Of a stretch of DNA of 64,000 nucleotides, positions 14,044-54,005 are shown one piece after another. How positions within the stretch are numbered: the stretch's first letter is position 1; each line of letters starts with the position of its first letter. The DNA comes from Tilletia caries (taxonomy: Eukaryota; Basidiomycota; Exobasidiomycetes; Tilletiales; Tilletiaceae). The translations under genes were made by a program, and so were the position numbers. Where the stretch lies: NCBI GenBank assembly GCA_032718865.1, contig JALUTQ010000046.1:496001-560000 (forward strand), read 5' to 3'. The notes below the pieces were generated by a model that searched no databases, was not told where the DNA came from, and was given only the letters and a program-made list of their open reading frames with translations.

Positions 14044-15675
14044 ATGTCCAGTAGCGATCATACCCTCGCAGACCGCCAGCACTCGCAGGACATTGAGAAG
14101 GGCCACAAACATCAGGACTCGGCTACCGAAGCCACGGCCATAAGCAAGCCAGAAAACTCAGTCGAAAACACACCACAGGCCGACAATAATGCCCCGACCC
14201 CGACCCCGGCCCCAGCCGCTCCAAGGATGCCCACATTCCCAGATGGAGGTTTGAAGGCTTGGTCGGTGAGTAAGACTCGTCGACCAAATCGCTTATTTGT
14301 ATCGAACCCGCTCACAACGTTAGCTTCCACCCATCCTCCACAGGTCGTCTTCGGCGCCTTTCTGGCGATGTGTGTCACCCTAGGTACCGTAATCTCCTTC
14401 ACCGTCTTTCAAGAATACTACTTCCGCGTCACCTTGAGCAACCAATCTCAGGACGCGATCGCCTGGATCGGCTCCGTCCAGTTGGCGTGCTCCTTCGGGA
14501 TGACTCTTCCCGCCGGAATGCTCAATAACAGATTTGGTCCACGCATCACCATCGCCATCGGTGCAGTCTTGGTGGTCTTGGGCAACATGACTGCCAGCGT
14601 CGCGAAGGAGTACTACCAGTTCTTCCTCTCGCAAGGGTTGTGTGCTGGATTCGGGTATGGCTTCGTCATGCTACCTGCGCTGGCCACCCCGTCCGAATGG
14701 TTCCTTGCCAAACGTGGTCTTGCAACCGCCCTGGCCATCGGAGGTTCCTCTATCGGCGGTGTCATCATCCCCGTCATGGTCAACCGTCTCCTCAACTCGG
14801 ACGACGTTTCTCTCGGCTGGACGCTCCGAGCAATCGCATTTGTCCAGCTCGGCGCTCTCATCGTGGCCATTGCCTTGATCCAGGACCGGTTCCCGAAGGC
14901 TGGGTTGGCACTGCCCATCAAGGAATACTTCGGCACCCGCGCGACGAACTTCTTCATGCTTGGAGGCATGTTCGTCTACCTGGGCCAGTATATTCCCTTT
15001 AGCTTCATCACACCGTACGGGGTCTATCGTGGAACCAGCCCAAATCTGGCTTTCTATTATGCCTCCATCCTGAACGGATCCACTTTCGCCGGCCGCTTGG
15101 CGCTTGGCACCCTCGCCGATCGCGTAACTGGCCATTTCAACACAGTCGCTGCGACTGCGCTGATCACAGGTCTTTTAGCATTCGTGGGTATTCTGCAACA
15201 TGATCCCAATCTTGAGAAGAATATGACTATCGAACTGACTACGATGTGAAACAGGTCATGACGGCTGCCTCCGATAATGCCGGCATCATCGTCTGGGCGG
15301 TGTTCTATGTGAGTCGCAGCCTCTTCTCCCTGCTCCCTTCTCTCTTAATAATGTCTGGCAGGATTTGCTGACCATTGCCATGTTCGAATTATGCAGGGCT
15401 TCTTCTCAGGAGCGATCCAATCTCTCTTCACCCCCGGCCTGGCCCGCCTGGCAGGCAGCCCACAGAAGATCAGCGGCTTCCTCGCCATCGGCTCCTCGCT
15501 GATGTGGCCCTTCCTGCTCGCCTCCGAACCAATTGCAGGCAAGCTCCTCCAGGACACAGGGAACACGAACTTTGTCGGCATGACGATCTTTGCCGGGTCG
15601 GTTTGCATGGCGGGTAGCGTCATGCTGGTCATCTCCCGCGTGCTCGTCCCGGGCGCCAAGGGGTTCAAGGTATGA
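14044..15675 (+). CDS. Monocarboxylate-porter-type MFS transporter
   Basis: Four exons: 14,044-14,265, 14,344-15,183, 15,255-15,308 and 15,397-15,675, giving about 464 aa. Residues 1-60 are a hydrophilic, Thr/Pro-rich cytosolic tail. FPDGGLKAWSVVFGAF then starts TM1, a typical opening of fungal monocarboxylate-porter-like (MCT/SLC16-related) facilitators. The N-terminal half has NNRFGPRITIAIGAVLVVLG and GYGFVMLPALATPSEWFLAK. A hydrophilic loop follows near DRFPKAG, then the second half with FAGRLALGTLADR and GFFSGAIQSLFTPGLARLAG. Twelve hydrophobic segments are expected. Membrane transport of a monocarboxylate or related small molecule is inferred; the substrate is not known. The ATG at 14,044 is preferred over an in-frame ATG at 14,014 because of its better context. 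The first intron is 78 nt and in frame, so it can be mistaken for coding sequence. Confidence 0.85.
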
Positions 15676-20913: not shown

Positions 20914-20921
20914 CTGCTGCC
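20914..20921. repeat. Left 8-bp target-site duplication of the KDZ element
   Basis: CTGCTGCC immediately precedes the left terminal inverted repeat and is exactly repeated at 35,368-35,375, immediately after the right terminal repeat. Eight-bp duplications are reported for Zisupton-type elements. Confidence 0.88.
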
Positions 20922-21019
20922 CACCTGTGGCACCTGTTACCCCGCCTTGTAGACAGCTTGTAATTCAATCTGGACTGTCTACAAGGCAAGATCTGGGCCA
21001 GATGAGCTTAAAATGAAGA
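20922..21019 (+). repeat. Left terminal inverted repeat with internal hairpin
   Basis: This 98-bp repeat matches the reverse complement of 35,270-35,367 at about 93 positions. Inside it, CCTTGTAGACAG (20,945-20,956) and CTGTCTACAAGG (20,975-20,986) are a perfect 12-bp inverted repeat around an 18-nt loop. The right copy keeps the arms only imperfectly. Such a nested palindrome is a likely transposase-recognition feature. Confidence 0.88.
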
Positions 21020-21386
21020 AATGAGAAAGGAAGAATCTTCCTCCCTTGCTCCCCGCTTCGGCAGCCGGCACGCCGCGCCGCGCCACGCGCGCGCGTACAG
21101 ACAGTCAAACACCGAGCGCCGAACTCAACACCGAGAGCTTGATGGGCGCGAGCCGCGAGTCGCGACCAGTCTCCTCCCCACCATCCGAGGACTCCTCCCC
21201 ACCAATCCCGGGCCACCAGAAACTCCCCAGCCTCTGCTCGCCTTCGTTCCTATTCAAAACCCCCCGGAAGAGCGCGGGTCTCATCGTGTCCGATGGGTGA
21301 GTGTGGCCAGGTGCCAAATTCCAACCGCGCCCCGCCATCCTTGCCCAGCTGGCACCACTTGCTGACCCCAATCAACCCCAACTCCA

Positions 21387-24300
21387 GTGACGAATGGCTC
21401 GCAACCCAAGCGTCTTTCCCGCAAGCCCAAGAGCTCTGTTGTACGCAAGGGCACGGTCCGCATCCTTGCCGACGGTTCTACATCCCACGCAGTGATCTCC
21501 ACTCGGCCCCTCAGCAGTACGCACATCTACAGCCACCACGATCTTGGGGATTTCCCGAACGATTATTCAGCGACCGACGACTACTTCAACGGCGACGGTG
21601 GAGCAGACACGGACGGCGCAGATACTTCCGGTGCAGATGCTTCCGACCTCCTCTTCTACCGCCGCCAGACCGTCATTGTCAACATTTCGCAGGTGCACGC
21701 GAACCCCCTTTCCTGGCGCCAACGCGAACAGAATGCCTTCGAAGATTGGGTTACGCGCCTCGATGACCTTGTGGCACCGTACCTCGCCGCGACCCGCTCC
21801 ACTCTCCCTTCCCGAACCACATGGGCGCACATGCTATGTACATGCTCCAGTCCCCCGACCTCCGCAGTCCTCTTTGTCGACCTTCACGGAGCTACGCCCC
21901 TTCGCATACGTTCCTGCAAGCCGCATCTCGCAGAGCTTCTTGTTCGTGGCGGAACCATCCCTTCCACGGTCCACGCGCCCCAAGTGACGTTCTCCAACGA
22001 CTACATCCGCCTCTTCCTCGCACTTCAAGACAACGCCCGTATTGGCGCATTCAACTTCACATTAGCGTCCTCGCAAGCCTCAAGCCTGGGCACGTCCGCC
22101 GTCCCTCCGTCCGCAATTTGGACCTCTCGTGTACGTCAATGCTCTTCCTAATGTGCCCCTACCCCTTCCTCTCATCCATCTGACAGCTCAATCTCCTTTA
22201 CCCGACAGGACACAGGAAGGAGGACTTTGCGGTCCGCATCCGAATGGATGCAAGCGCTAGAGCAGCGCTGTCACCAACTCATCCTCGGAACCGGCATCCT
22301 CTGGAACCACTCAAGACCACAGCTCGCCGAAGATGACCTCGAAGTATCCCTCGAAGATCTCGCCGCGCGTTGTCCCGCCTGCTTCGGAGACTGCTCAAAC
22401 AACAGACCTCCCCCGGTCCTCCCAACCCTCGTGATTCGTCCGACCTTCGGCCGGAAGTGGTTGTCTGTCTGGATGGCAACTTCCAGCACAAACGCATCCG
22501 GTGTAACGACGCCGTCAAGAAGATGCCCAAAGCACCAACCTTCTTTCTCTCCCCTCGCCAACTCAATGCTGCCCGCGAGCGGTTCGAGAATCCAGACATT
22601 CCGGAAGGCCCCCGCACAGGCTGCAGCGCTGAGGTGCGCGCCGCCATTGACGGGACGGTGAAGACCACTCAGGTCGACTTCGACATCGGAGGTGTGGTCG
22701 GGATGACGTGTCGTCACGGATCCCCTCTGATACTGGTTGACGTGGAGTCCAGCGGAAAAAAGCACTACTATGCCTACGCACTCCTCGAGGCACTCCTCGA
22801 CACATGTTCCTCCTACTTATCGTCCCTCGGCGTCTGTTATGACATCGGCTGCAAGCTCGCCGTCTCCCCTCGCCTCGAAGCTGCCCTGTCCAAACGTGGT
22901 CACTCCATCCCCCTTCACCACGTCGTTTCGATCTTTCACGTATATGGACACGACTACGATTGCCAGCTCAAGTACAGTCCTCGACGAACGGCAGGATTCG
23001 GACTCACCGATGGCGAGGCTCTCGAGCGCCTTTGGTCGGCACTGTCGGATCTTGTCAGCCTGACTCGGCACATGTCCGCGGCCGATCGACTCTCCACGCT
23101 CTCCTCCAGGCTTGGCTACCTCTCATCCAAGCATCGTCAAGACCTCCTTCACACCATGCAACGTCAACTAGTCAGGATCTCGAAACTGCAGCAGACCGAA
23201 ACCCGGCAGTTCCTCCAGGCGCTCCCCTACCTGGTTCAGTATACGAACGAAAGCGTCGCTCGCGCGTATGCCTCGACGTCTCCGGAGACTGGTCTTCCCG
23301 CGCGCTTGACCGCCTTCATCAATACCCAGCTCGCTCGGAGACGTGCTCTAGCCTTCGACAAGGACGCCACCTCTAGACAGCTCGCGCTCTGAGAGCAACA
23401 CAACCGGCGCAATCGCGTCGTAGATCTCTCCGTCGAAGCGAAACGGCTGTATCTTCCTCTCAAAAGCTGGCACGCCCTCTCCGCTATCATCCGCGGTCGA
23501 CATGCCCAGCATTCCCACGACGGGACGACACGCCTCACCATCAGCAAGACGTCCTCCGCTATGCAGGCGAAGCTAGCCCTGCCAGCTCTGAACGCGTCTA
23601 TTGAAAGGTACCGAACAGCGCTGCCCGAAAGACTTCGGCACCGACTACATCTCGTCAGTACCGACGCACTTTTCCTTCCAGCAAACCTCCCATACATTCA
23701 CGGCCTACTCAACCCCGCCGATGTCGATGAGGAGCCTTGGGTCGTCGATTCGGTCCTAGCCGCTGCCATGGACACCGTGGAACTGTTGAACCGGTTGAAT
23801 GAAGAGACTTCTCGGATCTCTGAGGAGATCAGCAACATGGGCAAATGGTACGAAGTCGTCCAGAATTCGCTACAAGACAGCCTCAGCCTATACGTCAATC
23901 CAGAATCCAGCCTTTTCGACCGCGATCGCGCTGCGTTCGTAGCGCAGCAGGTTGATACCATCCGGTGCATGTTTCGGGTTTGGAAGGCCAGGCTCGACAA
24001 CATATCACAGTGGCACCAATCGCATCTGGCGTCCTTGATGAATCAGAGAGCTTCCCACAGCAAGCGGGACCACATCGCACGATTTGACAGGCTTGTGGAA
24101 CAGCATTCCGCGTTGGCGGTGTCCTGGTTGGATTGGCCAAACGCGGACGTCTTTTTGGCGCATACAGGATCGCCTCATCACGATGGCGGCCGGCATACTC
24201 CCGGCAATGACGTCGATGCCGACGAGGATGCCGTCGCCCGAGCCTTGGTTGAGGACGAGGACGAAGAGGACGAAGCCGGCGAGTCCGGCGCCCAACGCCA

Positions 24301-24451
24301 TCCCCTCGACCGCACCAACTACGCTCACGATGCCGTCGCTGTCAATTCTGGCGATGAAGACGAAGACGACGACGACGTTGATGAGCGCCTTTCAGCATTG
24401 CTCTCCGGGATTCTGGTTCAAGAGGAGGAGGATCGTTCTGCTCTCACCTGA
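21387..24451 (+). pseudogene. KDZ (Kyakuja-Dileera-Zisupton) transposase, interrupted
   Basis: DDE-type DNA transposase that would bind and move this element. Exon 21,387-22,130 holds the CxC1-like N-terminal region (MLCTCSSPPTSAVLFVDLHG). An intron at 22,131-22,208 joins in phase to a segment ending RCPACFGDCSNN. The catalytic core continues in another frame: VVVCLDGNFQHKR (first acidic residue), CYDIGCKL (second), HVYGHDYDCQ, and GLTDGEALERLWSALS (glutamate). The tail, with LNPADVDEEPWVVDSVL, leads to an acidic C-terminus. There are two lesions. A frame change lies at about 22,390-22,450, in or near a C5 run, with no convincing intron. An in-frame TGA lies at 23,390-23,392, after which coding similarity resumes in the same frame. 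The start is unclear: an upstream frame (21,046-21,296, ending GLIVSDG at a GTGAGT donor) may be exon 1 but does not join in phase. Confidence 0.85.
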
Positions 24452-24479
24452 GATCAGCGTCACGTCAGCGTCACGCTTG

Positions 24480-25836
24480 CGTTCGGGGTTACAGGATGTG
24501 GGTTCGTCGGATGAACTTTCCGCGAGTGCGAATGTTGCGGAGACGGATGGGGTCGATGCTAGCAAGAGGCATACGGCCAACAACAAGAAGGCCGTCAACA
24601 AGAAGGCCGTGGGCGCTTGCAACACTCGACCGCGTCTGTGTTTGTGGACGTCCGTTGGGCGACGAGCGAGATGCCGCTCCAAGGCGACGACGAACCTAAA
24701 GTCCGACCAAGTGGAAATTGGCTGCCTCGGACTTCCTGGACGATCCGGCTGCCTTGGCTGCTGCGACGAGGGCTGTGCCGGCGGCGGCTGCAGTCGCGGC
24801 CAAGCACAGCACGCCTGATCTGTCCAGCCAGCAGATCCAGCAGATCCTGGCGCATCAACATCAGGTGGCGGCCCAGGCCCAGTCGGTGATTTACAACCCT
24901 TCACACATGAGCAGCATTGTTGGCCCGTTCAACGGGAGCAGTTCGTACATGGGTGTTTGGCGCTGGGGCCTTCGAACTCGTCCACGGCCGTTGGCAATGG
25001 TGGTGGGTTCCCACTTCCCAACGGCGCAGAGTCCGACGTCGTCGATTGTCCTGCCTGCTGGTGGGATGACCATGTCTGGGCGTGCGAATGCGTTGGCTGT
25101 TGCTGGTCTGCGGCGGCCGGGGATCATTCCTATGCAACAGCCGAGTATGCGCTCGCAGCCGCAGCAGATGCTGCCGCATGGTGTGTCGCCTTTTACGTCG
25201 TCTAGCCAGATGGTCTCGTTCCAGCAACAACAGCAACCACAGCAGCGGATGTACTCGATGCCGATGGGCATGGATCCGTTGGCTCGCGAGGGATCGATGG
25301 GCATGGGAGTGCCGATGGACACACCTTCGTCCACTGGTGGTCCGGGCAGTATCTTATCGGCAAGCTTGTTAGACGTCTACTCCCAGCAGAACTGCGGCGT
25401 CGGCGGCCACCATCATCACCTGCATCCGCACCGACCGAGCATGTCTGGCCACTCCGTCAGCGATTTCTCTGGCCTCAATGCGTTGGGTGAGACGAGAACG
25501 ACTGCCACTTCGGTCGAACTCAGCTCGAACGGTGAGGAGAGCGGGCTGGGTAGTCAGCGGCCCATATTCAGCGGCCCAGGTTCACCGACCTGGCGCGTCC
25601 TCGGCCGAGGAGTCGATGAAGGAGCACAAGCGGCGGGTGGACGCTTCGGCTACTGTGCTTCCGAAGGAGGCTGCAGCAACAGCAGCATCTCCATCATGCG
25701 CAGCAGCAGCGTCTGTTCCCGAATGGTGGGATCGGTGACCTGGTCGCTGGTCGGAAGCGATCGGCTGCTAGGGATGTGTTGCCACTCGGCCAGAAGCCTG
25801 CATCTCACCCAGCAAGGATTGCTCTGTTCAGCTTGA
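24480..25836 (+). pseudogene. Met/Gln-rich gene remnant inside the KDZ element
   Basis: A coherent protein-like text can be followed only by hopping frames. It starts near 24,500 (DVGSSDELSASANVAETDG), then 24,718 onward (AASDFLDDPAALAAATRAVP, SSQQIQQILAHQHQVAAQ, YNPSHMSSIVGPFNGSSS). One frame over, about 24,957-25,045 reads ALGPSNSSTAVGNGGGFPLP. It returns to the first frame (SSIVLPAGGMTMSGRANALA, MYSMPMGMDPLAREGSMG, then a His-rich stretch) and changes again near 25,590 (SAEESMKEHKRRVDASATVL). The composition resembles low-complexity parts of fungal regulatory proteins rather than a transposon gene. I read it as a captured and decaying host gene fragment. I do not recognise the parent. Confidence 0.45.
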
Positions 25837-26045
25837 TTCTGTCTCAGTGAGCTACTTTGTCCCAACTCATTACTCATGTCTCTGTCTCTGTCTCTGTCTC
25901 TACGGCCATCATCCGTTCGTTCTCATATCTGGACCCGCCTTTCTCTAAGTCCGTTTATGCCAGCAGGCCTCGTCCGTATCGAATGTTTCCAGCGATGCTG
26001 TTCCTATCATTGCCATCAAGAGAACGACGCGTTCGATGATACGGC

Positions 26046-26233
26046 AACTTCGTGAGTGCATTGTCGTTTTGCATGTCGCCCGCATGGCGCTCATATGTCA
26101 TTTCCGCATGTCCTCCGTATGTCAGCAGCTCAAAAGGGTAACTTCGTGAGTGCATTGTTGTTTCGCATGTCGCCCGCATGTCGCTCATATGTCATTTCCG
26201 CATGTCCTCCGTATGTCAGCAGCTCAAAAGGCT
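26046..26233. repeat. 94-bp tandem duplication
   Basis: The unit starting AACTTCGTGAGTGCATTG is present twice head to tail (26,046-26,139 and 26,140-26,233), differing at only a few positions. It precedes the acidic cargo gene by about 110 bp and so could lie in its promoter. Confidence 0.8.
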
Positions 26234-26343
26234 CCGAGATCGACAGACTCATCACGACTTATATCCACCACATCCACCTTCCCCCCCCCCTTCCGCCCAC
26301 CATCTTCGCACCATAGCTCCACATCCATCAGTCACACTCCGTC

Positions 26344-27334
26344 ATGTCGACTAGGTTCTCCTCTCCGCTGTCGTCTCCACCCCGCCCTCGCGCTCGCGCT
26401 CGTCAGGCACGCGTCCTACCCGACTCCGATTCCGAAACCGGGTCTTCCTCCCCCCTCTCGTCCCCACCACGCCCAAGCGCACGTCAAGCGCTCGTACTAT
26501 CCGACTCTGACTCCGATAACGACGGATATCCAGCCGACGAGGCGCCGGAAGACAACCTCAGCCCCGAGGAAGACGTCGCCGACGGCCCTGAACCCGACGA
26601 TGCCGACGATGTCGCGGTCGAGGCTCAATCCACAGACGGAGACGACAATGGCGAAGACCTGCTCGATTTCGTTGTCCCTCCTGGCGCCGAGATGGAAGAC
26701 GTTCCATCCACTTCCACCGGCGAGGAGTCCGCCGAGTCCACACCCCAGTCGTCGCCCGAGAGCGTGGTCGCGGTGGCAGGAGGCGGACACCACCTCCTCG
26801 AGGACGACCCAGAGGGTGACTATTACCCCCCCCGGTGAGCACGCGCCACACGTGCCGGTCGTTGATGACGGAGACGCAGGCTACGACGCCGATGGCAGCA
26901 GTGACGTCGCTGCCAACGACTACGACGTCGAAGACCATGAGGGCGACGATTTCGGTGTCGACGGCAGCAGCGACGTCGCTGCTGACGACTACGGCCTAAT
27001 TGTCGACGAGTTCGGCGCCGCTGCTGCCGTCGATATCGATGACGGCCACGGCCCCAATGCCGAGGACGATGCCGACTTCGCCGAGGACGATGCCGACTTC
27101 GCCGAAGACGATGCCGACCTCGCCGAGGACGATGCCGCCTATGATGATGTCGTTGCCGTCATCGAGGAGGCCGGATTCATCCAACCCCTTCCTCGCTCGG
27201 ACATTATCCCTTCCGGAGGTGATTCCGACTCTGATTTCACTATCACTGGCATCAAGCGAGCTGCATGCTTCAAAGTAGGCACCATTTCGGATTCCGGCGC
27301 CGCCTATCCCCTCTTCAAGAAGGTCAAGAGCTAA
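26344..27334 (+). CDS. Acidic cargo protein of the KDZ element
   Basis: Two exons, 26,344-26,834 and 26,899-27,334, joined by a 64-nt intron (GTGAGC…GGCAG), give about 308 aa. Without the intron the frame appears broken at the C8 run (26,826-26,833). The N-terminus is a duplicated Ser/Pro/Arg block (SSPLSSPPRPRARARQARVL, then SSPLSSPPRPSARQALVL), each followed by Asp/Ser-rich DSDSE/DSDSD. The middle and C-terminal half is extremely acidic, with five-residue repeats of the type EDDAD(F/L)A. The end turns basic (GIKRAACFKVG…LFKKVKS). It is predicted to be disordered. The acidic-repeat-plus-basic-tail layout would suit a chromatin- or DNA-associated regulator, but that is inference. No domain is recognised. 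Confidence 0.6.
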
Positions 27335-28470
27335 GCGACACCGATCTACCATTCTTGGTCGAACTGCAAGGGACACGCCAAGGTGCGACCGACTACTGGC
27401 TCCGTTTCTCTTTCTCTGTCGGCTGCGCCTCTCCAAACTATCGTCCCATTGTCCTCCACCTTCCCCCATGTCTTCCGTCTTCGCGATCTGGCCAATGAAG
27501 TTGTCTTTTATTTCGAACATAGCTGCCTGGGAATTGCGCAAATGAGTCGGGGCAGGGACGATGGAAGTCACTGGGGCCTCTGGAGCCTTCCAAGTATTCA
27601 TGGCGGCAGGTAGATAGGTCTTTGCGAAAGGGAATTGAGCTGGAATTGAGCTGGAATTGAGCTGGAATCGAGCTGGAATCGAGCTGGAATCGAGCGTCTC
27701 GACAGGTCCGCATCTTTCTTTCGCAGCGACGAGCATCAGCATACTTAATAACACATGTTGTTACACCTGGAGAGCGTGCTGGCGATGCCCTTCAGCACAA
27801 CGAAAGTACTTCAACTTGAGTTCCTGCGAAGTGATGACCGCCAGCGTTTGCAGTGGCCGATGTGTCAGTTAATAGATAACGAATCGGTTAACGCTCAGAA
27901 CCTGTTTTTCCTACCCTGTGCAGTCAATACTGCTCTAAACTCCTTCTAACTTCGCAGGTAAGGTCCTCGCACCGGTACAGATCGATAGGTACCGTTTTTG
28001 TCTGATGTTGTTTTCTGCGTGGATGTGTGGTCGTCTGTGGTGATTCACGATTTCCTGTTATTTCCAAGAACGTTCGCAGTGTACGCATCTAGACACTTCT
28101 GTAGAATCCAAGTGCACCTCCGATTTCAACACCCCAAACCTCAACGCAAAAGTTGGTTCAATCGAAAGGTATGTTCATTGCGAGCTCACAGAGCCTTTCA
28201 AACTGAAATTTGAATCACAGTATGGGGGTTGGTTAGGCAAACAAGCATATTGATATGTCCAGGGGTTTCCGATGAGAAATGGTATGTGTTGAGATGTGCA
28301 GAGGGATCCTAACGATGCGGAGAAAGCTGCAGAGGCTACAGGGTGTACGTTGGGATCATAAACCACCTAGTTCAGAGGCATGAGTATGGCTGTCAGCGAG
28401 TAGGAAGTGAGGAAGGACAGGCGCTGAAAATGCTTACTTGAGGAGGTCCATACAGAGCGGTAGGACCGTG
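27335..28470. repeat. Non-coding cargo stretch with an 11-bp tandem repeat
   Basis: At 27,631-27,695 the unit GGAATTGAGCT (later GGAATCGAGCT) is repeated about six times. The open frame running through it on the minus strand has no support. The rest of the stretch to 28,470 contains no gene I can defend. Confidence 0.6.
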
Positions 28471-28816
28471 TAGGAGCCGAAGTGTTGGACAACAACGAAG
28501 CAGACCGGTGCGTTGGTATATTGGGCGGCTCTCTGCCGAGTTTGATGGGTGCATCTGTGGTTTCAACGGAATGGGAGATCAGAAGCAAACAGGGGTCAAT
28601 GGACACACATCGCAAAGGGCGGCTTTCGAGGCCAGCAGAGCGATAGGAGCCGAAGCGTTGTAGAGCAACGAAGCAGACCGGTGCGTCGGTATATCGAGCG
28701 ACTCTCTGCCAAGTTTGATAGCTGCATCTGCGGTTTCAACGGATTGGGAGATCAGAAGCAAACAGGGGTCAAAGAACATACATCGCAAAGGGCGGCTTTC
28801 GAGGCCAGCAGAGCGA
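28471..28816. repeat. 173-bp tandem duplication
   Basis: The unit starting TAGGAGCCGAAG at 28,471 repeats at 28,644. It keeps segments such as CGAAGCAGACCGGTGCGT and GGGAGATCAGAAGCAAACAG, with scattered substitutions. It lies within the KDZ element. No gene is supported here. Confidence 0.8.
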
Positions 28817-29370
28817 TCAATTCGCTACGGAAGGAGAAGGGAGGGGATTCATAGAGAAGGAAGAGACTATGGCTGCATGGGAAAGGAAGAAGATATGATG
28901 GGGACCAGGTGGAAGGGAGCTGCAGAGGTAGATCGGAAGCAAGGTATCAGCCATGATACGAACGACTTTATGTTTACCGGAGCACAGGGAAGGCTACAGT
29001 TGTCCAAAAGGCCTGAAAACTGTGTCAGGGAGCCGAAAACGATCTATGCTATCGAAGCAGAACAGTCAATGCGTTGGAAAACGTGACGGAAAGCTGTAAG
29101 GAAGCTGTAAGGTGGGTAAGAAATTGAGCTACAAGGAGAACGAGAGGGAGTAGATCAGCTTCCTCGAGCAGCTGGTGTCCAGAATGAGGCACAGTCACGC
29201 TCAAAAGCACACAGGGACAATCAATGTATACTCTGTTGACTCAGGCCTTACCTTCGACATGAATCGTAATGGGGACGGGGTCATCCGCAAGGCAGAGAAA
29301 GGACATAGAAGGAGGAGGAAGGGGTTAGGACATGTTGTTTTGACTGCTTCTCGGAGCGTTCTTCAACGTT
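28817..29370. other. Non-coding cargo stretch
   Basis: No gene supported; the sequence is purine-rich on the plus strand with no clear repeats. Confidence 0.3.
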
Positions 29371-30220
29371 TTGCCCATTTCGCCGCCATCCCGTTGCCAT
29401 TCCTCTCCTCTTCAACACCTTCCTCTTCAACACCTTCCTCTTCAACACCTTCCTCAATCCTCATACGGCTCCGAGCATCAACGTCACGCCCAACCCAAGA
29501 CCTGCGACTCCGCTTCCGATTCAGATCACAGCGCTGCTGTCCAACCATCAGCCGAACCCATACCCGTCTCGCGCCCGCCTACGTCGACGTTGGCGGCGCT
29601 GTCGCCGGCTCAACAACCACCCTCAACCCTGCCTTCTCACCGTCCCGACCAACTCCACCGCCAGTGCCACTGGTTACACTTACTGTGAGTATTTCGGCAG
29701 GACCTATACACATACAGCCTGCACGTTCACCGACCTCGTCTGCGTCTCTGTCCATTATCTCTAGGTGGTGCCCGTGCCGCCAACAACACTGCCGTTGCCC
29801 CCGGCGGAACCATCTTGGCCAAGGTTGGCCAAGGTAACATCTCCTCGTCCCGCCGCTCTCCCCAGTCAGCCCTGATCCAGGAAGGTACCAGGGCATGGTC
29901 GCCAGTGCCACCCACTTCTCCGTCATGATCAGCAGCGTAGGATGCCAACACCAACCCATAACCAAGAACGGAACCCTCTCCACCAGCCACACCTCCGCCA
30001 AGCACCGTCTCCTCAACCTCGGTGGCTACCAACCCCTTCGATGCGCTCACCACCACCGTCCCCTCACGGCTCGGCTGTCGGTACCCCGTATCTGTTCAAC
30101 GCCCCCTCGCCGCCGGTTCCTTCTCCTGCCCCGCCCTCAGCGACGTCTCGATCTGGCCGATCTTGCTTACTCCTTGCTCAGAAGCAAGTAGATGGTCAGT
30201 CTATCGATAGCTCTCGATAG
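29371..30220 (+). pseudogene. Second decayed coding segment in the KDZ element
   Basis: Pieces with coding character appear in alternating frames. 29,405-29,690 reads SSYGSEHQRHAQPKTCDSAS to TSTLAALSPAQQPPSTLPSH, preceded by three 15-bp TTCCTCTTCAACACC repeats and ending at a GTGAGT donor. 29,763-29,850 reads VVPVPPTTLPLPPAEPSWP after a CTCTAG acceptor. 29,990-30,180 reads PPPSTVSSTSVATNPFDALT or, in another frame, SAVGTPYLFNAPSPPVPSPA. The NPF-containing, Pro/Ser/Thr-rich text again looks like a fragment of a host regulatory protein. No intact product can be assembled and no family is recognised. Confidence 0.35.
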
Positions 30221-30230
30221 GATCTCCTCG

Positions 30231-30410
30231 CTCCACGGACGCCACGCTCCTTCTCTGTCCGGGCCGCCTTTACTCGGTTTGGCCGCCCCTCCATCTCCTC
30301 GCTTCACGGACGCCGCGCTCCTTCTCTGTCTGAGCCCGCTCCACGGACGCCGCGCTCCTTCTCTGTCCGGGCCGCCTTCATTCGATTTGGCCGCCCCTCC
30401 ACGTTCGTTG
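30231..30410. repeat. Three direct copies of a 29-bp motif
   Basis: CTCCACGGACGCCGCGCTCC, continuing TTCTCTGTC, recurs with minor changes at about 30,231, 30,302 and 30,339. The two outer copies are followed by a shared GGGCCGCCTT…TTTGGCCGCCCCTCC block, indicating duplication of a larger unit. Confidence 0.65.
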
Positions 30411-30614
30411 CCACGGTCTGGTCCGCCTCTGCTTCTGTACACCGCCCTCCTCCATTGATCTAGGATCAAGATTCAAGACCACTCGCGACTCGATCATCAG
30501 GACATAAATCGGATTGGACGAGACGAGATAGAGAGTATAGAGAGAGAGTAGAGAGGGGTGGCCATGCGGGAAGGCGTAGATGAGCGATGGCAGCTAAGCA
30601 TGCATGCAGCTCGA

Positions 30615-31811
30615 TCATTCATCCATGTCTGTGAAGGGATCTTCAGGCGCGGTGATCTGGCGGGCTCGGAGATTGTTTTCCCGCAAGGCCTTCCTCAGAG
30701 CCTCCATCGGCTCCTCCTTCCAGACCGAAGTATTGTGGAGACTCCCAGACCACACCTTCACGATCCCCGCACCAGTGGAAGCCGTGTTCGCGTCTCTTGC
30801 TTGTTCCATAACCACGTCGTCCTTCAGCAGACCCGTGGCCTCCTCTGGCCACCCTTCCACGTAGCATCCTGTCTCGGCTACCATAGAAAATAAATCCTTG
30901 TATCGCAACCTAGTCCCACCGCTCGTAGCCTTAACCCACTTAGTCAAGGCAGCTGAACCCCCAACCAAAGCTGCTGAAACAGCCGAATGAAGGCGCAGGA
31001 TGAGGTCTCTGGCGAGCCGCTGAGTAGGATTGAGCCGGCAGACCACGAGTGGTCCGTCCATCTCCCTTGCGTTCCGCTCGTCCTCCCAAACCTTCAGCTT
31101 GACCGCTCGATCGAACATGCGCGAGACGTCGTCTCCCGTCGTGCCGGTCTTCAGACGGTTGAGGGCCGAGGCCAGGGCTACCCCGGCTTGGTCCGAGTAA
31201 CCCAGGAAGGGATCGATACCTTCTTGGGAATGAGAGAGGAACGCAACTGCCGTGATGCCGTACCGGAGTTGTAGATGTCCGATTCGCGTCATCACGTCGC
31301 GGCAGGCCGCACTGAACTCCTTCTGAGTATCGCGTGCCGGCTTCTCGTCCAATCGCTTCGTTGCCCATTTGTCGATCGCCTGCTTGTTTGCGGGGGTGAG
31401 AGCCTCATAGGCCGCTCCTACGTCTTGTTTCGCTGCTGAGGCCGGCGCCGTCGGCTCGTCAATATCGTTGGCCGGTGGTGCTGCTGCTGACCCTTCCGTT
31501 GCGGCTGGCCCTTCCGTCGGTGCCGGCCCTTCCGTTTGCTCGGCCGTCTCTCGCGCCTTGTGCTTGACCCAGGCCTGGTACGAGTTCCATCCGTTCCGGC
31601 TGCGGAAATGCTTGGAACGCTGGTCGATGATACGTCGGGCAGTGCTGGGGTCGATCTTGGCCTGCTGCGATAGCGCCTTGATCTTGAGAGCGTAGCGAGC
31701 TTGTATTTCTTCGATCTCAGGCCTATAGTGCACCTGCCAATGCGACTTTGCTCTTCCGCTGCTCGAACTGGCGGCACGTTGAGGGGTGATACGATTCGCA
31801 GACGCTGGCAT
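30615..31811 (-). CDS. 398-aa orphan protein carried by the KDZ element
   Basis: An intronless open frame starts at the ATG at 31,811 (MPASANRITPQRAASSSSGR) and ends at 30,615. The open frame extends further upstream, but that part reads like untranslated sequence. After a Ser-rich leader, residues 20-105 are basic and helical (HYRPEIEEIQARYALKIKAL, QRSKHFRSRNGWNSYQAWVK). An Ala/Pro/Glu linker with TEGPA-type repeats follows. The larger C-terminal half (from about residue 130) is non-repetitive and helix-rich, with conserved-looking stretches HLQLRYGITAVAFLSHSQEG and NPTQRLARDLILRL, ending DPFTDMDE. The NGWNSY-type segment recalls orphan families in Agaricomycete repeat regions, but this is only resemblance. 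It is divergently oriented with the neighbouring finger gene across about 230 bp. Function unknown; the intact frame next to a broken transposase is notable. Confidence 0.7.
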   Translation of the reverse strand: MPASANRITPQRAASSSSGRAKSHWQVHYRPEIEEIQARYALKIKALSQQAKIDPSTARRIIDQRSKHFRSRNGWNSYQAWVKHKARETAEQTEGPAPTEGPAATEGSAAAPPANDIDEPTAPASAAKQDVGAAYEALTPANKQAIDKWATKRLDEKPARDTQKEFSAACRDVMTRIGHLQLRYGITAVAFLSHSQEGIDPFLGYSDQAGVALASALNRLKTGTTGDDVSRMFDRAVKLKVWEDERNAREMDGPLVVCRLNPTQRLARDLILRLHSAVSAALVGGSAALTKWVKATSGGTRLRYKDLFSMVAETGCYVEGWPEEATGLLKDDVVMEQARDANTASTGAGIVKVWSGSLHNTSVWKEEPMEALRKALRENNLRARQITAPEDPFTDMDE

Positions 31812-32042
31812 TGCGATGTGATCGATCCTTGTGAGTAATGAGATAAGAGTAATGAGATGAGGTTGAGGTATGGTGACACTGAAGGAAGTGAAAGAAGGCG
31901 CACCCAAGTACTCGCGACGCGTATTGTTTCCCACGCGATCGATGTGTCTAACACGTCGCGTCACTCCACTCCATGTCTATCTACCGTACCTCTTAACCTC
32001 CTTCCCCTTTCTCAGCTCTCGTGCTCCAACCTCCTCTTCTCC
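31812..32042. promoter_or_regulatory. Shared divergent promoter region of two cargo genes
   Basis: This 231-bp gap lies between the starts of the minus-strand 398-aa gene and the plus-strand finger gene. It contains the duplicated motif GTAATGAGAT (31,831-31,859) and a CT-rich strand switch. Both promoters must fit here. Confidence 0.4.
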
Positions 32043-33062
32043 ATGCTCAGCGATCGGCGCTGGTGCGACGCGCAGGTTCCCTTTGAACCGAGCCAGCAGG
32101 TGCGCGCCGCTGCCCACCCGCCCTCCTCACCCACACTGCCGATATGGCACGCGCCTGACAACGACGCGCGTACTACCTCGGCCCACAGTCCCACTCCACC
32201 CGTTTCTTCCCCTCTAGCCTTTATCCAGGAAGAAGACGGACGGCTGCGTCCAGACGCAAACGAGTCCGCCTTGCCTTTCTTCGCTGCGCTCTCTGATACG
32301 AGCGCGGCGGAGACTCTGGCTGCCATAGCGTCGTCGACTACCGCAGCGTGGCTTGCCCCTGCCCCGTCCACTCCCGCAGCCACAACCAGCACGCCATTGC
32401 CGGCCGCTGCCCCCTCTAAACCCGCAACCAAGACTACCACACCGCCGGCCGCTGCCCCGGCCACTCCTACAACCACGACCAAGACTACCACACCGCCGGC
32501 CGCTGCCCCGGCCACTCCCGCAACCACGACTACCACGCCATTGCCGACCCTGTCCCCGTCTACTCCCGCAAGAACCCAGTCTGTCAGCGCCTACCCCTCC
32601 TCGGACTGGCCACTAAAACAAGAGCTACGAGGTAGCCAAGCCCACTACTATCGCGGCCCGTTAGCTCCTGCTAAGGTTATCGGTCTCCTTTCAACTTCCA
32701 TCAGCAAGAACGGACGGCTGTCTCTGACTGGAACTCGCGCCGGATACCTTTCGTATTTCCACTACTTGGGTCCTGAGTCCGTTCCCAGTACCAGGAAGAG
32801 GACCGGCAACAACAGACGGCACACAGAGCTCTGGCAGTGCCGAGTCTGTCATGAGGAGCTTCATATTCCACAAGATCAAGTATCGAACCTCGGTATCCAC
32901 CTATATGGCCAGAGATCGCGTCCTGGTCGAGGGTGCCTGGCCACTCACGAGCACGACCCTGCCGAGAATATCCCTCCCCCTCCCCGTAATGCGACAGGAT
33001 CGATCATCCGACTCCAAGCTGGAAAGAACGCAGCCGCGCCGACTCGGACTACTCGCTCGTGA
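32043..33062 (+). CDS. BED-like zinc-finger cargo protein A
   Basis: The preferred start is the ATG at 32,043 (MLSDRRWCDAQVPFEPSQQ), giving 339 aa; an in-frame ATG at 31,857 would add 62 unconvincing residues. The N-terminal half has Ala/Pro/Thr low-complexity repeats (TTTPPAAAPATP units, from tandem DNA duplication at 32,375-32,540). Near residue 180, SDWPLKQELRGSQAHYYRGP begins a folded-looking part with GRLSLTGTRAGYLSYFHYLG. The C-terminus has LWQCRVCHEELHIPQ followed by SNLGIHLYG and GCLATHEHD. The pattern Trp-x-Cys-x2-Cys…Asn-Leu-x-x-His…Cys…His matches a BED-type zinc finger loosely. Such fingers are common in transposase-derived proteins and usually bind DNA. A role in regulating the element is inference. 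Confidence 0.65.
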   Translation: MLSDRRWCDAQVPFEPSQQVRAAAHPPSSPTLPIWHAPDNDARTTSAHSPTPPVSSPLAFIQEEDGRLRPDANESALPFFAALSDTSAAETLAAIASSTTAAWLAPAPSTPAATTSTPLPAAAPSKPATKTTTPPAAAPATPTTTTKTTTPPAAAPATPATTTTTPLPTLSPSTPARTQSVSAYPSSDWPLKQELRGSQAHYYRGPLAPAKVIGLLSTSISKNGRLSLTGTRAGYLSYFHYLGPESVPSTRKRTGNNRRHTELWQCRVCHEELHIPQDQVSNLGIHLYGQRSRPGRGCLATHEHDPAENIPPPPRNATGSIIRLQAGKNAAAPTRTTRS

Positions 33063-33377
33063 TGTTCCGGACCCCAGGACCCCAAGCCTCTCTCCATCAC
33101 CCCCCTACCCTTCTCTCCAAGTGCAATCAAAATGCCATACTGAAGTTGCCAATGCGTTATGCGGATGAGGAGATGGGAGCTTCGAAGACTGATGCCTGAG
33201 CAGAACACACATGTGGGATGTCCCTTATACTTGATCCTTCCTTCCCGCTTCAGCGTCCAGTCCATACTGAGGTGTGGTAGTGATTACTAGTCTGCCTGGT
33301 ACATGAACAGAGGCGCAACGCCTGGGGAAGGTTCTGGGGGAGGTATCCACGGTGCCCTCCCGACGGTCACCGGCTCT
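33063..33377. other. Gap between the two convergent finger genes
   Basis: Holds the 3' ends of both finger genes. A tandem duplication of about 51 bp (unit GGAGGTATCCACGG at 33,339 and 33,390, followed by CCGACGGTCACCGGCTCTTC) begins here and runs into the end of the next gene. Confidence 0.5.
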
Positions 33378-34871
33378 TCAATGCGAACGGGGAGGTATCC
33401 ACGGAGCCCACCCGACGGTCACCGGCTCTTCAATGCGACGGCATCGCCTGAAGTGTCTTGGGAGATTGGTGGTGATCCCCTTCCTCTGGGTCACGTTTGC
33501 GTGACAACATCGACATCGCCACTGCAGGGTCCTCTTGCCTTCGTCATTGCTGACCTGCATCACGTCAAAGTTGTGGAGGGCAAGGAGACTGACCACTCCG
33601 GCAAGCGATTCATCCCGGAGCATGGCTTGAATGGGGTCGGAAACTGTGTTGCGCGATATGGCATCCGCCCTTGCACGTTCGACCTCCACAGAGTCAACCC
33701 TGCTTCTCTTCTTTGGCGACGGGGAGCTGGTGGTGTTCGGACTGCTGGGCGCCGACTCGATCCGGCTTCGCTTCTTGGGTAATGGGGAGAGGGTGCTGTT
33801 CGTACTGCTAATCGCGGCGCATGGCTGAGGCGCGGGGACGGTGTTCGTTGGACGGCCTCTCGCCGCTGGCAGCCTGCTGGACTGCGTTGGTCGAAGGATG
33901 GCCGGCGCTGAGGAAGTCTTGATACGGCTTCGTTGCTTTGGCACTGAGGAGGGGGACCTCTCAGACGGATCGTACCGGGCCTGTCCCACCGAAGACGACG
34001 AAGAGTGGCCGTCTGTGGCGGCCCGGGCTATGCCAACCGAACGCGGATCGTCTTTCTGCCGGGCCAGGTGGCCGGGCCTCTCCGGCTGTGGAACAGGTCG
34101 ACTGCCGGACTGAGGAGATTGGGGAATGTCCGACGCTGACTCCGACACGATCCGGCGTCGCTGCTTTGGTGAAGAGGAGGTGATGCTGTTCGAGCTGCTG
34201 AGCGCGGCGCGTGGCTTGGGCGCGGGGACGGCGTTCGTGGGACGGGGTCGCAGTGGATGGGTCGGGGCGGTTGCGTAGAAGGATGACGAGGGTTGAACCA
34301 CCGACAGAGACATCTTGCGAGTAGCGATCCTGCAAACTTGCGGCGGCAGATGCTGCGTCGGTTCTTTGAGAGCTTTTCGGTCAAGGCGTTGAGTCGGGCG
34401 TGGAGTCGGGCGTGGAGTCGGTACGATAGATGTCTACGGAGTTGGAGCAGCAATGGCAAAAAAGGGTGTGAGCTGGATGGGATGATGTGAGGGAAGGTGT
34501 CTGCTGCAGCTGCTCACCTGCTGACCTAACGGATCGGAGGACTCCTCGTGCGGGGGTCTGTGTGCACCCGATCCTTGGGCGGGGCAACTGATGCGTACTC
34601 GAGGGGGTTGGGTGGCCCTTCCTGGGGACCGGCCTGATGGGAGTCGAGGGAGGAATGGCGGGTGCTGGAGAGGCGGGTTCTGATGGCCAACGCAGGGGGC
34701 GTAACCCAAGGATGGAAGCGGACGCTTCCATGTACCGGGAAAGTCGCGTCGGGCTGCGTACGCCCTGTATGCGGCACTGATCGTGAACGTGTCGTCTGCG
34801 TGATCGGAAAAATCGGACTCCTCGTCTGTCCCTGCACTGGGAAACAGCGGACTGTCGGGGGTATCGAACAT
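33378..34871 (-). CDS. BED-like zinc-finger cargo protein B
   Basis: Two exons, 34,871-34,518 and 34,433-33,378, with an 84-nt intron (GTGAGC…CCGTAG) joining in phase, give 469 aa. It starts MFDTPDSPLFPSAGTDEESD with a short acidic patch, similar in style to the acidic cargo protein. A long Ser/Pro/Arg-rich region follows with internally duplicated blocks (PTNAVPAPKPRAALSSSNS versus PTNTVPAPQPCAAISSTNS; repeated SPKQRRR, PLPKKRSR and PSPKKRSR basic clusters that look like nuclear localisation signals). The C-terminus folds into RDESLAGVVSLLALHNFDV and then a clear BED-like finger: LQWRCRCCHANVTQ…TTNLPRHFRRC. Nuclear DNA binding is likely. The terminal location next to the right inverted repeat would suit a role at the ends, which is inference. 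Confidence 0.65.
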
Positions 34872-35269
34872 GAGAGGGGAGGAGTGGTGCTGGATAACAA
34901 AAATAGATGGGAGAAGGGCTCATGGGTGAGTTGAGGCGCGACGCGGTTCCCAAGCAAGGAGAAATGACGTGAACGCACCTCGAACATGTCTAATGTGATG
35001 CTGAGACGGGTAAAATGAGAAGGTAGTGACGGAGAGAAGGAGATTGTTGGCTGAGGGGGCGTCAAGGATGACCGGGCATCGTCGCGGCGCGTTGCTGGGA
35101 ATGAAGGGAAGGACGCGTCGCGCAAATCAAGGTTCACGTGGGTTTGAAAACAGTGTTGCTATGCGAGGACACAGGCGGAAGACTAGCGAAAATGGAGCCG
35201 GGGAAGGGTCGAACGTGTGCCGTATGTTGACGTCATCTCAGGGCGGACCCAGGAAGGGTTAAACCTTTA

Positions 35270-35367
35270 TCTTCATTTTAAGCTCATCTGGCCCAGATCT
35301 TGCCTCGTGGATAGTCCAGATGGAATTACAAGCTGCCTACAAGGCGGGGTAACAGGTGCCACAGGTG
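35270..35367 (-). repeat. Right terminal inverted repeat of the KDZ element
   Basis: The reverse complement of this segment matches 20,922-21,019 at about 93 of 98 positions. Three of the five differences fall in one arm of the nested palindrome, so the hairpin is weaker here than on the left. About 400 bp separate it from the start of finger gene B. Confidence 0.88.
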
Positions 35368-35375
35368 CTGCTGCC
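35368..35375. repeat. Right 8-bp target-site duplication of the KDZ element
   Basis: CTGCTGCC, identical to 20,914-20,921. Removing the element and one copy gives an empty site …CGCGGT-CTGCTGCC-TGCTGACCGCG…. Confidence 0.88.
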
Positions 35376-38072: not shown

Positions 38073-39320
38073 TCACACTGTTGCGACCGCTTGTCTTGCC
38101 ATCTCCAAGGCCCCCTCCTTCGTCGCATTTCCTGGATTATGCCGGAAGAAAATCCAAGTCAGCATTCGCATATCCTTAGGTATTGTCGCTATCAGAACGA
38201 CGAAAACGTGATCACTTACCACCGATGAACCCGCTTTGATGCACGAAGATACAGCCCTCGATGCCCGTCAGCTTTGTGAGGGCATCGTCCCGCACACCAC
38301 GCCATGGCTCTGGTAGAGGTTTGCGGCTGACGAAGCTGTCAGGGTTGATGGGCACCGCCTGGATGCGCCATTTCCCAGACTCGTCCGGGTAGACGACATA
38401 GAGTGCCCGCTCTGCTTGCGGGATGGCCAGGTCCGACTCCAATTGGAAAATATGATCTTTCCAGGAAGCAAACTCATCGAAGACGAGGACCCGGCCCTGA
38501 GGATCGCCACCGGAAACGGACTTGCGGACGTTGAGCGCGTTGAGGACGATCTCGCGGGCAGGGAGCCAGGCCTCGAAGGTGTAGTTGACCCGATCGAAGA
38601 ACTCAGTTCCAGCCATGGTACTGGCGCGCTCGAATCGGGCATTTTGGTCTTCGGGAGAAGATGTTTCGTTCCACCGCGGGTTTGTGTGGCCGACCCGAGA
38701 CGAGAGATCGGTCTTGCTCTTGTACAGAGGTTGACCGGCCGAAGAGGGGTACTGGGCAATTCCATTGTCGATGGCATCGATCGCCTGAACAAAGTCATCG
38801 TAGAGCTTGAGGTGGAGGAGGGTCACCCGAGAGTCGTCAACGGGAAGCTTGAGATGCTCCGCCAATATCTTCGTACCGAAATGCTTCCACACCAAGCCGG
38901 CACTGCTGAGCTTGATTGAGTGCTGAGCATCAAAGGTCTCTTCGAAACCGCGCTGGTGGTGGTCGTAGCGGTGTCGCAGAGGATCGTATTCAGCTCCTAC
39001 GTCGACAACGATGGAGCCTTGGTCTATGAGCGCCGGGTCACGGGTGCGAACGAGGGGCATACTCTGGTACTGTGGAAGCTTCCGCAGCATGAATACAGCA
39101 AGAGCCTCGTCGGCTGAAGGTATGGAGAACAGGGTCAGCCTCCCCTCTTCCAGACAGCATTTATAGCGCTGGCACAGCATTTACCCACCATGATGTGTGC
39201 CACTGCAGCGCGCGAGACGAGAGAAGGCGTAGAGTGAGAAGATCAGCAAGCGCTTCTCCTGCGGCCCAGTCAGCGACGCACTCACCTGTGCGTGACGATG
39301 GAGTTAGCTGAGGCGGCCAT
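38073..39320 (-). CDS. MYG1: MYG1-family 3'-5' RNA exonuclease
   Basis: Minus-strand exons 39,320-39,286, about 39,202-39,189, 39,113-38,220 and 38,131-38,073 give about 333 aa. MYG1 is a DHH-related metal-dependent exonuclease that processes RNA in nucleolus and mitochondria. Seen here: SGTHH then DEALAVFMLRKLPQY, VRTRDP, IVVDVGAEYDPLRHRYDHHQ (the metal-binding hallmark), GLVWKHFG, YDDFVQAIDAIDNGIAQYPS, LESDLAIPQAERALYVVYPD, and the C-terminal GCIFVHQSGFIGG joined by a spliced 59-nt exon to NATKEGALEMARQAVATV. The short N-terminal exons are less certain: the usual GTHNGTFH loop appears four to five residues short, so either a microexon was missed or the loop is trimmed. The next gene, SMARCD, is divergent with about 385 bp between the two starts. 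Confidence 0.8.
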
Positions 39321-39705
39321 CTTGTATACGCCCCGTGCAAAAACCTGCTGGGCGAGCGATGCGCGTAAGATGTTGGCTGCGGGCAGGACGAGGCAGCGGG
39401 CGGTGGACGAGAAGAACAGACGCGTCGTTCGCAAGCTCGTTCCACAGCAAACGCGTCGAGACAAGGCGAGGTTCATTCGACGTCCGACAAAAGGACAAAA
39501 AGCGACCACCTCGACAGCCGCGACGTTCTTCTCGTTCACCACCTCGGCGATTCGGCGATTCCGACTCGATAGCACTCACTCCTTGTGTATTTGGCGCCCC
39601 AGCGCGTCGCTTCTCCAGTCCGCACGTCCAACGCGCAAAGGCAGGCGGAGAAAAGCGCGTCGCAATCGGGGAAGAAGGAAAGCAAGCGTCCAACACCGAA
39701 CGGAT
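39321..39705. promoter_or_regulatory. Divergent promoter between MYG1 and the SMARCD gene
   Basis: 385 bp between the MYG1 ATG (minus) and the SMARCD ATG (plus). Open frames cross it on both strands but have no support. It must hold both promoters. Confidence 0.45.
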
Positions 39706-41639
39706 ATGTCGAAACGGTCAGCCGCTCATCTCGGCGGCGGCGGCGGCGGCGGGATGGCGCCGCAACAGCAACAGGCGGGGGTCCCCGTTCCTGTCATGGG
39801 GGCTGGGGGCCCGCCCGTGATGCCTCCCGAGCTGGCGGATGTGCTCAGAGCAGCCAAGCGAAGCCGACCGACGGACCGCTCCTTGCCCGCGACGTTGCGG
39901 AAGAGCGTGCCCGAGAGCGCGTTCTACTATGATCTCCAGCTGCTGGAACGCAAGCTCGACTGGACTATTGCGCGCAAACGGGCAGAAATCGCGGATTCCA
40001 TCACGAAGCCGGCCAGGGTTCGTACACGTTGACTCAAGAGCTGCAACAGGACGCGTGTTCTGTTTGGCAATGGTGCTGACTGACTTCTCTTTCGGGACCA
40101 CAGATCAAGAGGACACTGCGCATCTTCATCAGCAATACATGCGCGAATCAGCCGTTCCAGACGGCGGGCTCCAAGTCCCAGTCCGGCGCGGATGGAGCGG
40201 ACGGTGCAGGCAGTTCGACAGCAGGGGCTGACGGAGCTGGCAGCAGCGCACCCGTCGATGCGCCTTCATGGACACTCCGCGTTCAAGGCCGTCTCCTCGA
40301 ACCCGCGTACCGGTCCCGTGCGAACGCAGCATTGATGACGCAGGCTACAGGATCGCGCATCGGCGCTTATCGCTTCTCCAACCTCATCTCCAGCATGACG
40401 GTGGAGATCCAGCGCGACCAGAGTCTGCATCCCGACTCGAGCAATGTTGTCGAATGGCATCGGCCGATCCCTCAGTCGGCTCCCCATGCCAGCACAGCCT
40501 TGACGATCGGCCAACCTGGCGGATCGGGTGGGACCGGCCCCGGGTTGCAAGGGGCAGCCTCCGGCCCGAGTTTGACAACAGAGCCTCCCCTGCTGGCTAC
40601 GACCGAGCCCTCGCTGGATGGCTTCGAGATCCGGAGACTGGGGTCGCAACCGGTCAAAGTCCGCATCGTGCTCTACCTTGCCCACACGCCCGAACAGTAC
40701 AGCCTTGTGCCTGAATTGGCGGACCTTCTCGACATCCGCCAAGCGACCCGCGCCGACGTCATATCCGCTCTGTGGGCCTACATCCGCGACCGTCGTCTGC
40801 TGGACGAGAAGGACCGGCGCAAGATCCGGTGTGATGCCAAGCTCGCCGCGCTCTTTAAAGTCGAGACGATTGCGTTCCACCACGTGCCGGAGGTTGTCAA
40901 TCGGTTCCTCTCCCCCGTGCATCCTGTCGTGCTCGAGTACTACGTCCGGACGGACAAGGCTGAGCATAAGAGTCCTGTGGCGTACGACGTCGAGGTGGAG
41001 TTGGAAGACCAGAATGTGCGGGCGCGGCAGCACGAGGTCCTGCGCAAGTTTGACCACAGTACCGACTTGAGCAAACAGATTCTTGATTTGGACGATGAGG
41101 TGAGCGCATGTAGAGGGGATCTTCTTTCTCGACCGTCATTCCGTCCGTTTTTGTGACTGACCAATGTATTGTCATTCCTCCCCGCAGATCGCCCAAGCTG
41201 CTGGGTCCCTACAGTCACACTCGGCTACAGCTGCGTTCCTAGCCTCTTTTGCACGCGATCCGCAGGTCCATCTGCGTACATGGCTTGCGTCTCAGGCGCG
41301 CGATCTTGACGCGATCATAGGCGCGACTGCGCTTGGTGGGGCAAGTGGAGCTGGAGTTGGCATCGGAAAGGAAGAGCTTCGCAGAAGTGAGAACTTCAGA
41401 GGAGCGTGGGTTGACGAGGCGGTGGTGAGTTATGCCTTCATTTTCGCCTGCATTTATCCAGTCCTCCCTCACAATTTGAGTTCGTGCGCTGACTGTGTCG
41501 TCTGCCTTGCAATCTGTAGATCGTTCATGAGGGACAACGTCTAGCTGAGCGTCTCCAAGAGCTCCAGCGGGTAGAAGCACGGGCTGCTGGTGCTCCTATA
41601 CCAAGCGCCATGGTGCCTGGGCATGGAGCAGCGCGGTGA
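39706..41639 (+). CDS. SWI/SNF or RSC subunit of the SMARCD (BAF60/Rsc6/Snf12) family
   Basis: Four exons, 39,706-40,017, 40,104-41,099, 41,188-41,424 and 41,520-41,639, all joined at phase 0, give 554 aa. The protein is a core subunit of ATP-dependent chromatin-remodelling complexes and links factors to the ATPase. A Gly/Gln/Pro-rich start leads into FYYDLQLLERKLDWTIARKR and RIKRTLRIFISNTC, then APSWTLRVQGRLLEP. A SWIB domain follows: YSLVPELADLLDIRQATRAD, VISALWAYIRDRRLLDEKDR, FKVETIAFHHVPEVVNRFLS. The C-terminal coiled-coil part includes FDHSTDLSKQILDLDDEIAQ (across the junction at 41,099/41,188) and DPQVHLRTWLASQARDLDAI. Whether it serves SWI/SNF, RSC or both cannot be told. All domains are intact. 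Confidence 0.88.
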
Positions 41640-43414: not shown

Positions 43415-43445
<31 letters not shown>

Positions 43446-54001: not shown

Positions 54002-54005
54002 GGTT

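Follow-up and report, generated by a model that had tools for sequence, protein, structure and literature searches.

The 14.4-kb element described here lies in a window of 64,000 nucleotides (the whole stretch of DNA that was analysed) from contig JALUTQ010000046.1 of the wheat bunt fungus Tilletia caries, and the closest described systems are the KDZ transposons, which occur in many fungi. Complete Cryptococcus KDZ elements have been published (PMC12810828, PMC12510652); KDZ1, KDZ2 and KDZ3 of Cryptococcus neoformans are 9.2-11 kb long, with inverted repeats of 139-241 bp and a CxC1-bearing KDZ transposase, and their duplications are 8 bp, or 4-8 bp for KDZ2 and KDZ3 (PMC12810828). In the parts of that paper that treat KDZ1-3, the transposase alone is described; the figure is restricted to predicted mobilization genes, and other genes may be present that are not shown. 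KDZ elements bearing TET/JBP genes occur in the Dileera, Kyakuja and Zisupton lineages. In the sections of PMC12730594 on these lineages, Zisupton and one Dileera family make 8-bp duplications, and the two described Kyakuja families have a 7-bp duplication and 5'-CA..TG-3' ends with no inverted repeats.

For Tilletia itself, the repeat table for T. caries TC1_MSG lists 283 DNA-transposon pieces (43,263 bp), and that table has no KDZ line (PMC10684912). We found no literature linking Tilletia with KDZ. Among the literature matches listed for KDZ, Zisupton and BED accessory proteins, a KDZ partner gene set is absent from the titles and abstract openings, full texts being outside that scope.

We consider it probable that the 14.4-kb stretch is one inserted copy of a cut-and-paste DNA transposon of the KDZ superfamily, equipped with a set of accessory genes specific to the lineage. 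The reading is based on the matching ends, the 8-bp duplication, the KDZ domain, other copies of the ends with other duplications, and the recurrence of four further genes, here called W, X, Y and Z. An initial annotation of this DNA had proposed a gene-carrying mobile element of a kind rarely delimited. The first part stands, as the element has matching ends, its own target duplication and extra genes. Delimitation alone is not rare, however, because the complete 9-11-kb Cryptococcus elements with long inverted repeats cited above have been published.

Ends of the element and their other copies

The features that delimit the element are:
20914-20921, left target-site duplication, sequence CTGCTGCC
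20922-35367, KDZ element, 14,446 bp between the duplications, defined by its ends and the duplication
20922-21019, plus strand, left terminal inverted repeat, 98 nt, starting CACCTGTGGCACCTGTTAC
35270-35367, minus strand, right terminal inverted repeat, 98 nt
35368-35375, right target-site duplication, sequence CTGCTGCC

The two 98-bp inverted repeats 14.4 kb apart and the perfect 8-bp duplication had both been named in the initial annotation, and both are present: an inverted-repeat search with alignment found the arms identical at 93 of 98 positions, and CTGCTGCC borders both ends. Such repeats and such a pair of duplications at the correct spacing are far beyond chance. Terminal inverted repeats with an 8-bp target duplication are also the arrangement described for Zisupton.

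The genome searched here and below is that of T. caries (38.10 Mb, 40 contigs). A search of it with the end repeat, as the initial annotation had suggested, gave 29 matches to the left end. These make up 15 elements, namely 14 inward-facing pairs, the 14.4-kb element included, and one single end. Ten of the other 14 elements have a perfect 8-bp duplication, each of a different sequence, and one (K) has an imperfect duplication. The duplication could not be judged in the remaining three, which are C (altered left end), I (one end) and O (right end apparently beyond the stretch analysed). Elements D, F, H and M are uninterrupted units of 2,528-2,534 bp that are 95-99% alike. The longer elements, the 14.4-kb one apart, hold much of the same 2.5-kb unit split by insertions (for I, the comparison covered the first part). 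Elements B, G and J contain nested insertions, which are bounded by long direct repeats measuring 244, 372 and 259 bp, respectively.

The possibility that the 2.5-kb elements are coding was rejected. Their longest open stretches are 116, 129, 116 and 114 aa (D, F, H and M), and shuffles of element H gave a median of 104 and a 95th percentile of 149. Because they have no coding signal, these elements must have relied on a transposase encoded elsewhere in order to move, so that their ends were mobilised in trans. From the shared ends, we infer that the mover was the transposase of the 14.4-kb element's family.

The initial annotation had also held that end repeats occurring as independent elements with their own duplications would speak against the 14.4-kb element. 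Taken literally, the 2.5-kb elements are just that. The 14.4-kb element nevertheless stands, because its own ends agree best with each other (95%, versus 78-89% for the other copies against the left end) and share one duplication.

The transposase, genes W-Z and their recurrence

The transposase region has two features:
21366-24448, plus strand, KDZ transposase region, with a weak CxC1-like part, a likely intron and the PF18758 domain
23390-23392, plus strand, in-frame TGA that splits the transposase 3' of the catalytic domain

The assignment to KDZ made in the initial annotation is supported by a strong Pfam match to the catalytic domain, PF18758, in the frame 22337-23389 (E 8.7e-47, 160 bits versus a cut-off of 26.6). 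Upstream of it is a weak CxC1 match (E 1.1e-4, 22.8 bits) that falls under the Pfam cut-off of 26.9. The frame is not uninterrupted. An earlier stop, at 22149-22151, is read as intronic because the protein match skips there from window position 22133 to 22206, and the stretch near 22131-22205 is likely an intron. The TGA at 23390-23392 is unlikely to be intronic, because the match to a second KDZ family of this genome (see below), whose frame is open at this position, crosses it ungapped for 562 aa (52%) at constant spacing throughout. This copy of the element is probably no longer autonomous, because the TGA would cut the transposase after the catalytic domain.

The four further genes are:
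26317-26838, plus strand, gene W, 173-aa open frame, acidic and Ser/Pro-rich
30615-31811, minus strand, gene X, 398 aa, no Pfam match over the cut-off
32043-33062, plus strand, gene Y, 339 aa, C-terminal BED-like motif W-x-C-x2-C-x16-H-x11-C
33378-34898, minus strand, gene Z, spliced, C-terminal BED-like zinc finger in the genomic frame

The initial annotation had listed four apparently intact orphan genes. That all four are genes is supported by the relatives that each of them has at other places in the genome. Genes X and Y, which are divergently oriented, are also supported as intact open frames; the open frame of W is probably a single exon within a longer gene, and Z has introns with discordant gene models. 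Domain searches found no known domain above the Pfam cut-off in W, X or Y and no enzymatic domain in any of the four, and the zf-BED match of Z lies below the Pfam cut-off. The predicted structure of X is mostly helical with low confidence, and the models of X and Y were too poor for fold searching. Against solved structures, the X profile had just two chance-level matches (E 0.13 and 0.51), and Z and Y had no match. Compared with an 86% copy at C39:772k, X has a dN/dS of about 0.56 (NG86) or 0.88 (YN00), values that are uninformative because that copy is a fragment.

Loci of W-Z were counted by single-protein searches of the genome with exon matches merged, the E-value cut-offs not being equal among genes, and a locus was considered near if any of the 20 strong KDZ loci was no more than 20 kb away. 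All nine W loci (the element's own counted) are near, as are 15 of 23 X loci, 13 of 24 Y loci and 10 of 15 Z loci. Seen from the transposases, W, X, Y and Z are near 9, 15, 13 and 10, respectively, of the 20 strong KDZ loci. One or more of these genes is near 19 of the 20 loci, two or more are near 16 and all four are near five; the locus at C39:705k is the sole one with none. Several of the 20 loci are copies of one family, and for loci other than the two delimited families "near" differs from "inside". Random placement in 20,000 trials, a simulation that covered X, Y and Z with W left out, gave means of 0.48, 0.49 and 0.31 of the 20 KDZ loci, respectively, and a maximum of five loci for one gene and seven for any of the three. 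As a control for general transposon clustering, none of 39 copies of a dispersed repeat (40 of 62 candidates scored, the element's own copy excluded) is near a strong KDZ locus by this measure. Nor is any of the 14 other elements with the same ends; an X locus lies within 20 kb of one of these elements, and a Z locus within 20 kb of one.

A further 13 weak KDZ loci form a divergent group with KDZ profile scores of 27.9-32.6 bits, and X, Y or Z lies no more than 20 kb from three of the 13. Eleven of them cover just profile positions 74-217 (27.9-31.1 bits), as if they were one repeat family.

The second KDZ family is present at C30:501k, C5:1640k and C19:340k, and its transposases are 62.5-63% identical to that of the 14.4-kb element over 312 aa. 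The three copies are 97.8-99.4% identical to one another across blocks of more than 3 kb, and the DNA that they have in common measures 12,218 bp in the C30 copy; the C5 copy carries about 4.5 kb of extra DNA. All three copies examined have perfect 8-bp duplications, all different, and a fourth copy of the left end is at C23:892k. The family starts CTCCTGTGGCAGG, which is reminiscent of CACCTGTGGCACC in the 14.4-kb element, but unlike that element its ends have no clear inverted repeat. Both X (E 4e-31) and Z (E 7e-13) have relatives enclosed in this delimited family.

These results bear on the view, implied by the initial annotation, that W-Z are a one-off cargo of orphan genes. If host genes had been captured once, this would fit with the lack of known domains above the cut-off in W, X and Y, and with database homologs that were found in Tilletia only. 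The database search covered X, Y and Z. X has four matches at E values up to 0.001, of which one is the protein of the window itself and the other three are Tilletia proteins; Y has four, all from this genus, one in T. controversa (99.7% by tblastn), two in T. indica (71 and 68%) and one in T. walkeri (47%); and Z has two, both from Tilletia. For X and Y, the best 8,000 or so candidates by shared words were scored, and distant relatives elsewhere are possible. The Y and Z relatives of T. indica have locus tags two apart, which suggests that the pair is linked in that species also. We nevertheless consider a single capture very unlikely, since at least one of the genes lies beside 19 of the 20 strong KDZ loci and relatives of X and Z are found within the second delimited family. 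The genes are thus no one-off, as they recur with KDZ transposases genome-wide, and they are better understood as belonging to the transposon itself than as its cargo.

A second alternative is that a small element with these ends was invaded by an unrelated transposon carrying W-Z. As noted above, elements B, G and J do contain nested insertions. However, the 14.4-kb element and the 2.5-kb elements have only the ends and one internal patch of about 330 bp in common, with no other DNA match of at least 180 bp between them. The interval holds six other inverted-repeat pairs (25-32 nt, 70-85%), none of them end-like, in a search for repeats of at least 25 nt that shorter ends would escape. In addition, the second KDZ family holds relatives of X and Z between its own ends. 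Nesting is, in our opinion, unlikely.

Some observations weigh against a KDZ transposon with its own accessory genes. The second KDZ family gave no match to W or Y at E values up to 0.01, which would also fit with nesting. Some copies are far from strong KDZ loci (8 of 23 for X, 11 of 24 for Y and 5 of 15 for Z), as a single capture would allow; four of these eight X loci, two of the 11 Y loci and two of the five Z loci have a different gene of the W-Z set no more than 20 kb away and might be remnants. Finally, the database gene models of Z drop part of the zinc finger and model the 3' part differently.

Other features of the element and the window

One more feature of the element is:
27882-28241, plus strand, internal segment of about 360 bp, a copy of a dispersed repeat that is also within the 2.5-kb elements

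The repeat has at least 40 dispersed copies (the 40 scored), which are 68-73% alike to the element's copy. Of the other 39, seven are within known end-repeat elements and 32 elsewhere, and four copies are accompanied, at a distance of a few hundred bases, by a partial copy in inverted orientation. The segment is weakly but collinearly present in the second KDZ family. In nine copies of the 2.5-kb family its nucleotide diversity (pi) is 0.068, versus 0.036 for the remainder. The idea that it is a conserved cis site was rejected in view of the dispersed copies, their absence near strong KDZ loci and this extra variability. An Rfam search with the segment gave a chance-level match only (E 0.6). 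The end pattern CWCCTGTGGCA occurs at 83 sites in the genome, versus 62 for the reversed control, and was found within 5 kb of none of the 32 repeat copies outside known end-repeat elements, the nearest being at 5,033 bp.

Short tandem duplications are present in the element at 26046-26231, 28471-28817, 32355-32571 and 33337-33438, one of which falls in the low-complexity part of gene Y. Host genes flank the element, with an MFS transporter on the left (13942-15246) and members of the MYG1, SWIB, Sec66 and HAT1 families on the right (38215-48921). Farther to the right, at 53805-57914, is a Ty1/copia-type retrotransposon or remnant. Its 881-aa frame, which comes straight after another long frame, encodes RVT_2, integrase and related domains.

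Possible mechanism and comparison with known systems

We suggest that the KDZ transposase would cut at the CACCTGTGGCACCTG termini and that the element would insert into 8-bp staggered sites. The Y and Z proteins, with their BED-like zinc fingers, may bind element DNA at the ends or in subterminal sequence, and this binding could help to assemble the transposition complex, or could regulate or de-repress the element. X and W may be further accessory proteins. The present copy is probably immobile alone because of the TGA; a relative could move it, as for the noncoding 2.5-kb elements.

More broadly, and tentatively, the Tilletia KDZ elements may be multi-protein machines in which the KDZ protein provides catalysis and Y, Z, X and W are partners for DNA recognition or control, one set being shared across divergent families with its membership, order and orientation shuffled. 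Alternatively, the accessory genes might counter silencing of the element and have no part in transposition proper, by analogy with transposon-borne TET/JBP, for which such a role has been argued in other fungal transposons in the part of PMC12730594 on this subject. The position and recurrence of the genes fit this equally well, but no enzymatic domain was found in them, and two of them, Y and Z, resemble DNA binders; we regard it as a somewhat unlikely explanation.

If W-Z are partners of the transposase, genes that appear to be orphans in this wheat pathogen would become transposon genes, and four protein families without known domains would gain a context. Relatives of W, X, Y and Z in Tilletia gene catalogues should not be taken for lineage-specific host genes without a transposon check. 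One would also predict that KDZ elements elsewhere may hide overlooked partner genes.

The 14.4-kb element resembles Cryptococcus KDZ1-3 in having a KDZ transposase, long terminal inverted repeats and an 8-bp duplication, and differs from them, as they are described, in its four further recurrent genes and its 98-bp ends. With the TET/JBP-bearing elements it shares a KDZ transposase plus extra genes between transposon ends. Unlike them, it has no TET/JBP domain in the nine element ORFs (open reading frames) scanned, as the initial annotation had observed. A PF12851 profile search of the whole genome likewise had no match, but it had none in control genomes either, so that the absence is unproven there. 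The ends start CA and finish TG as in Kyakuja, from which the 8-bp duplication and the 98-bp inverted repeats set the element apart.

Starship elements of ascomycetes are also large, carry several genes and have a tyrosine-recombinase captain. Both they and the 14.4-kb element are large fungal multi-gene elements; here there are a KDZ transposase, inverted repeats and an 8-bp duplication, and no tyrosine-recombinase domain was found in the nine element ORFs scanned against Pfam. Two-protein DNA transposons include En/Spm (TnpA/TnpD), MuDR (mudrA/mudrB) and Harbinger (with a Myb-like partner). These likewise have a separate DNA-binding or accessory protein beside the transposase, a likeness in gene organisation as it is generally known, and their transposase superfamilies are different ones. 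In conclusion, the accounts of fungal KDZ elements cited at the outset describe only a transposase or a transposase together with a TET/JBP enzyme, and the T. caries genome adds what appears to be a recurrent and unexpected set of partner genes.
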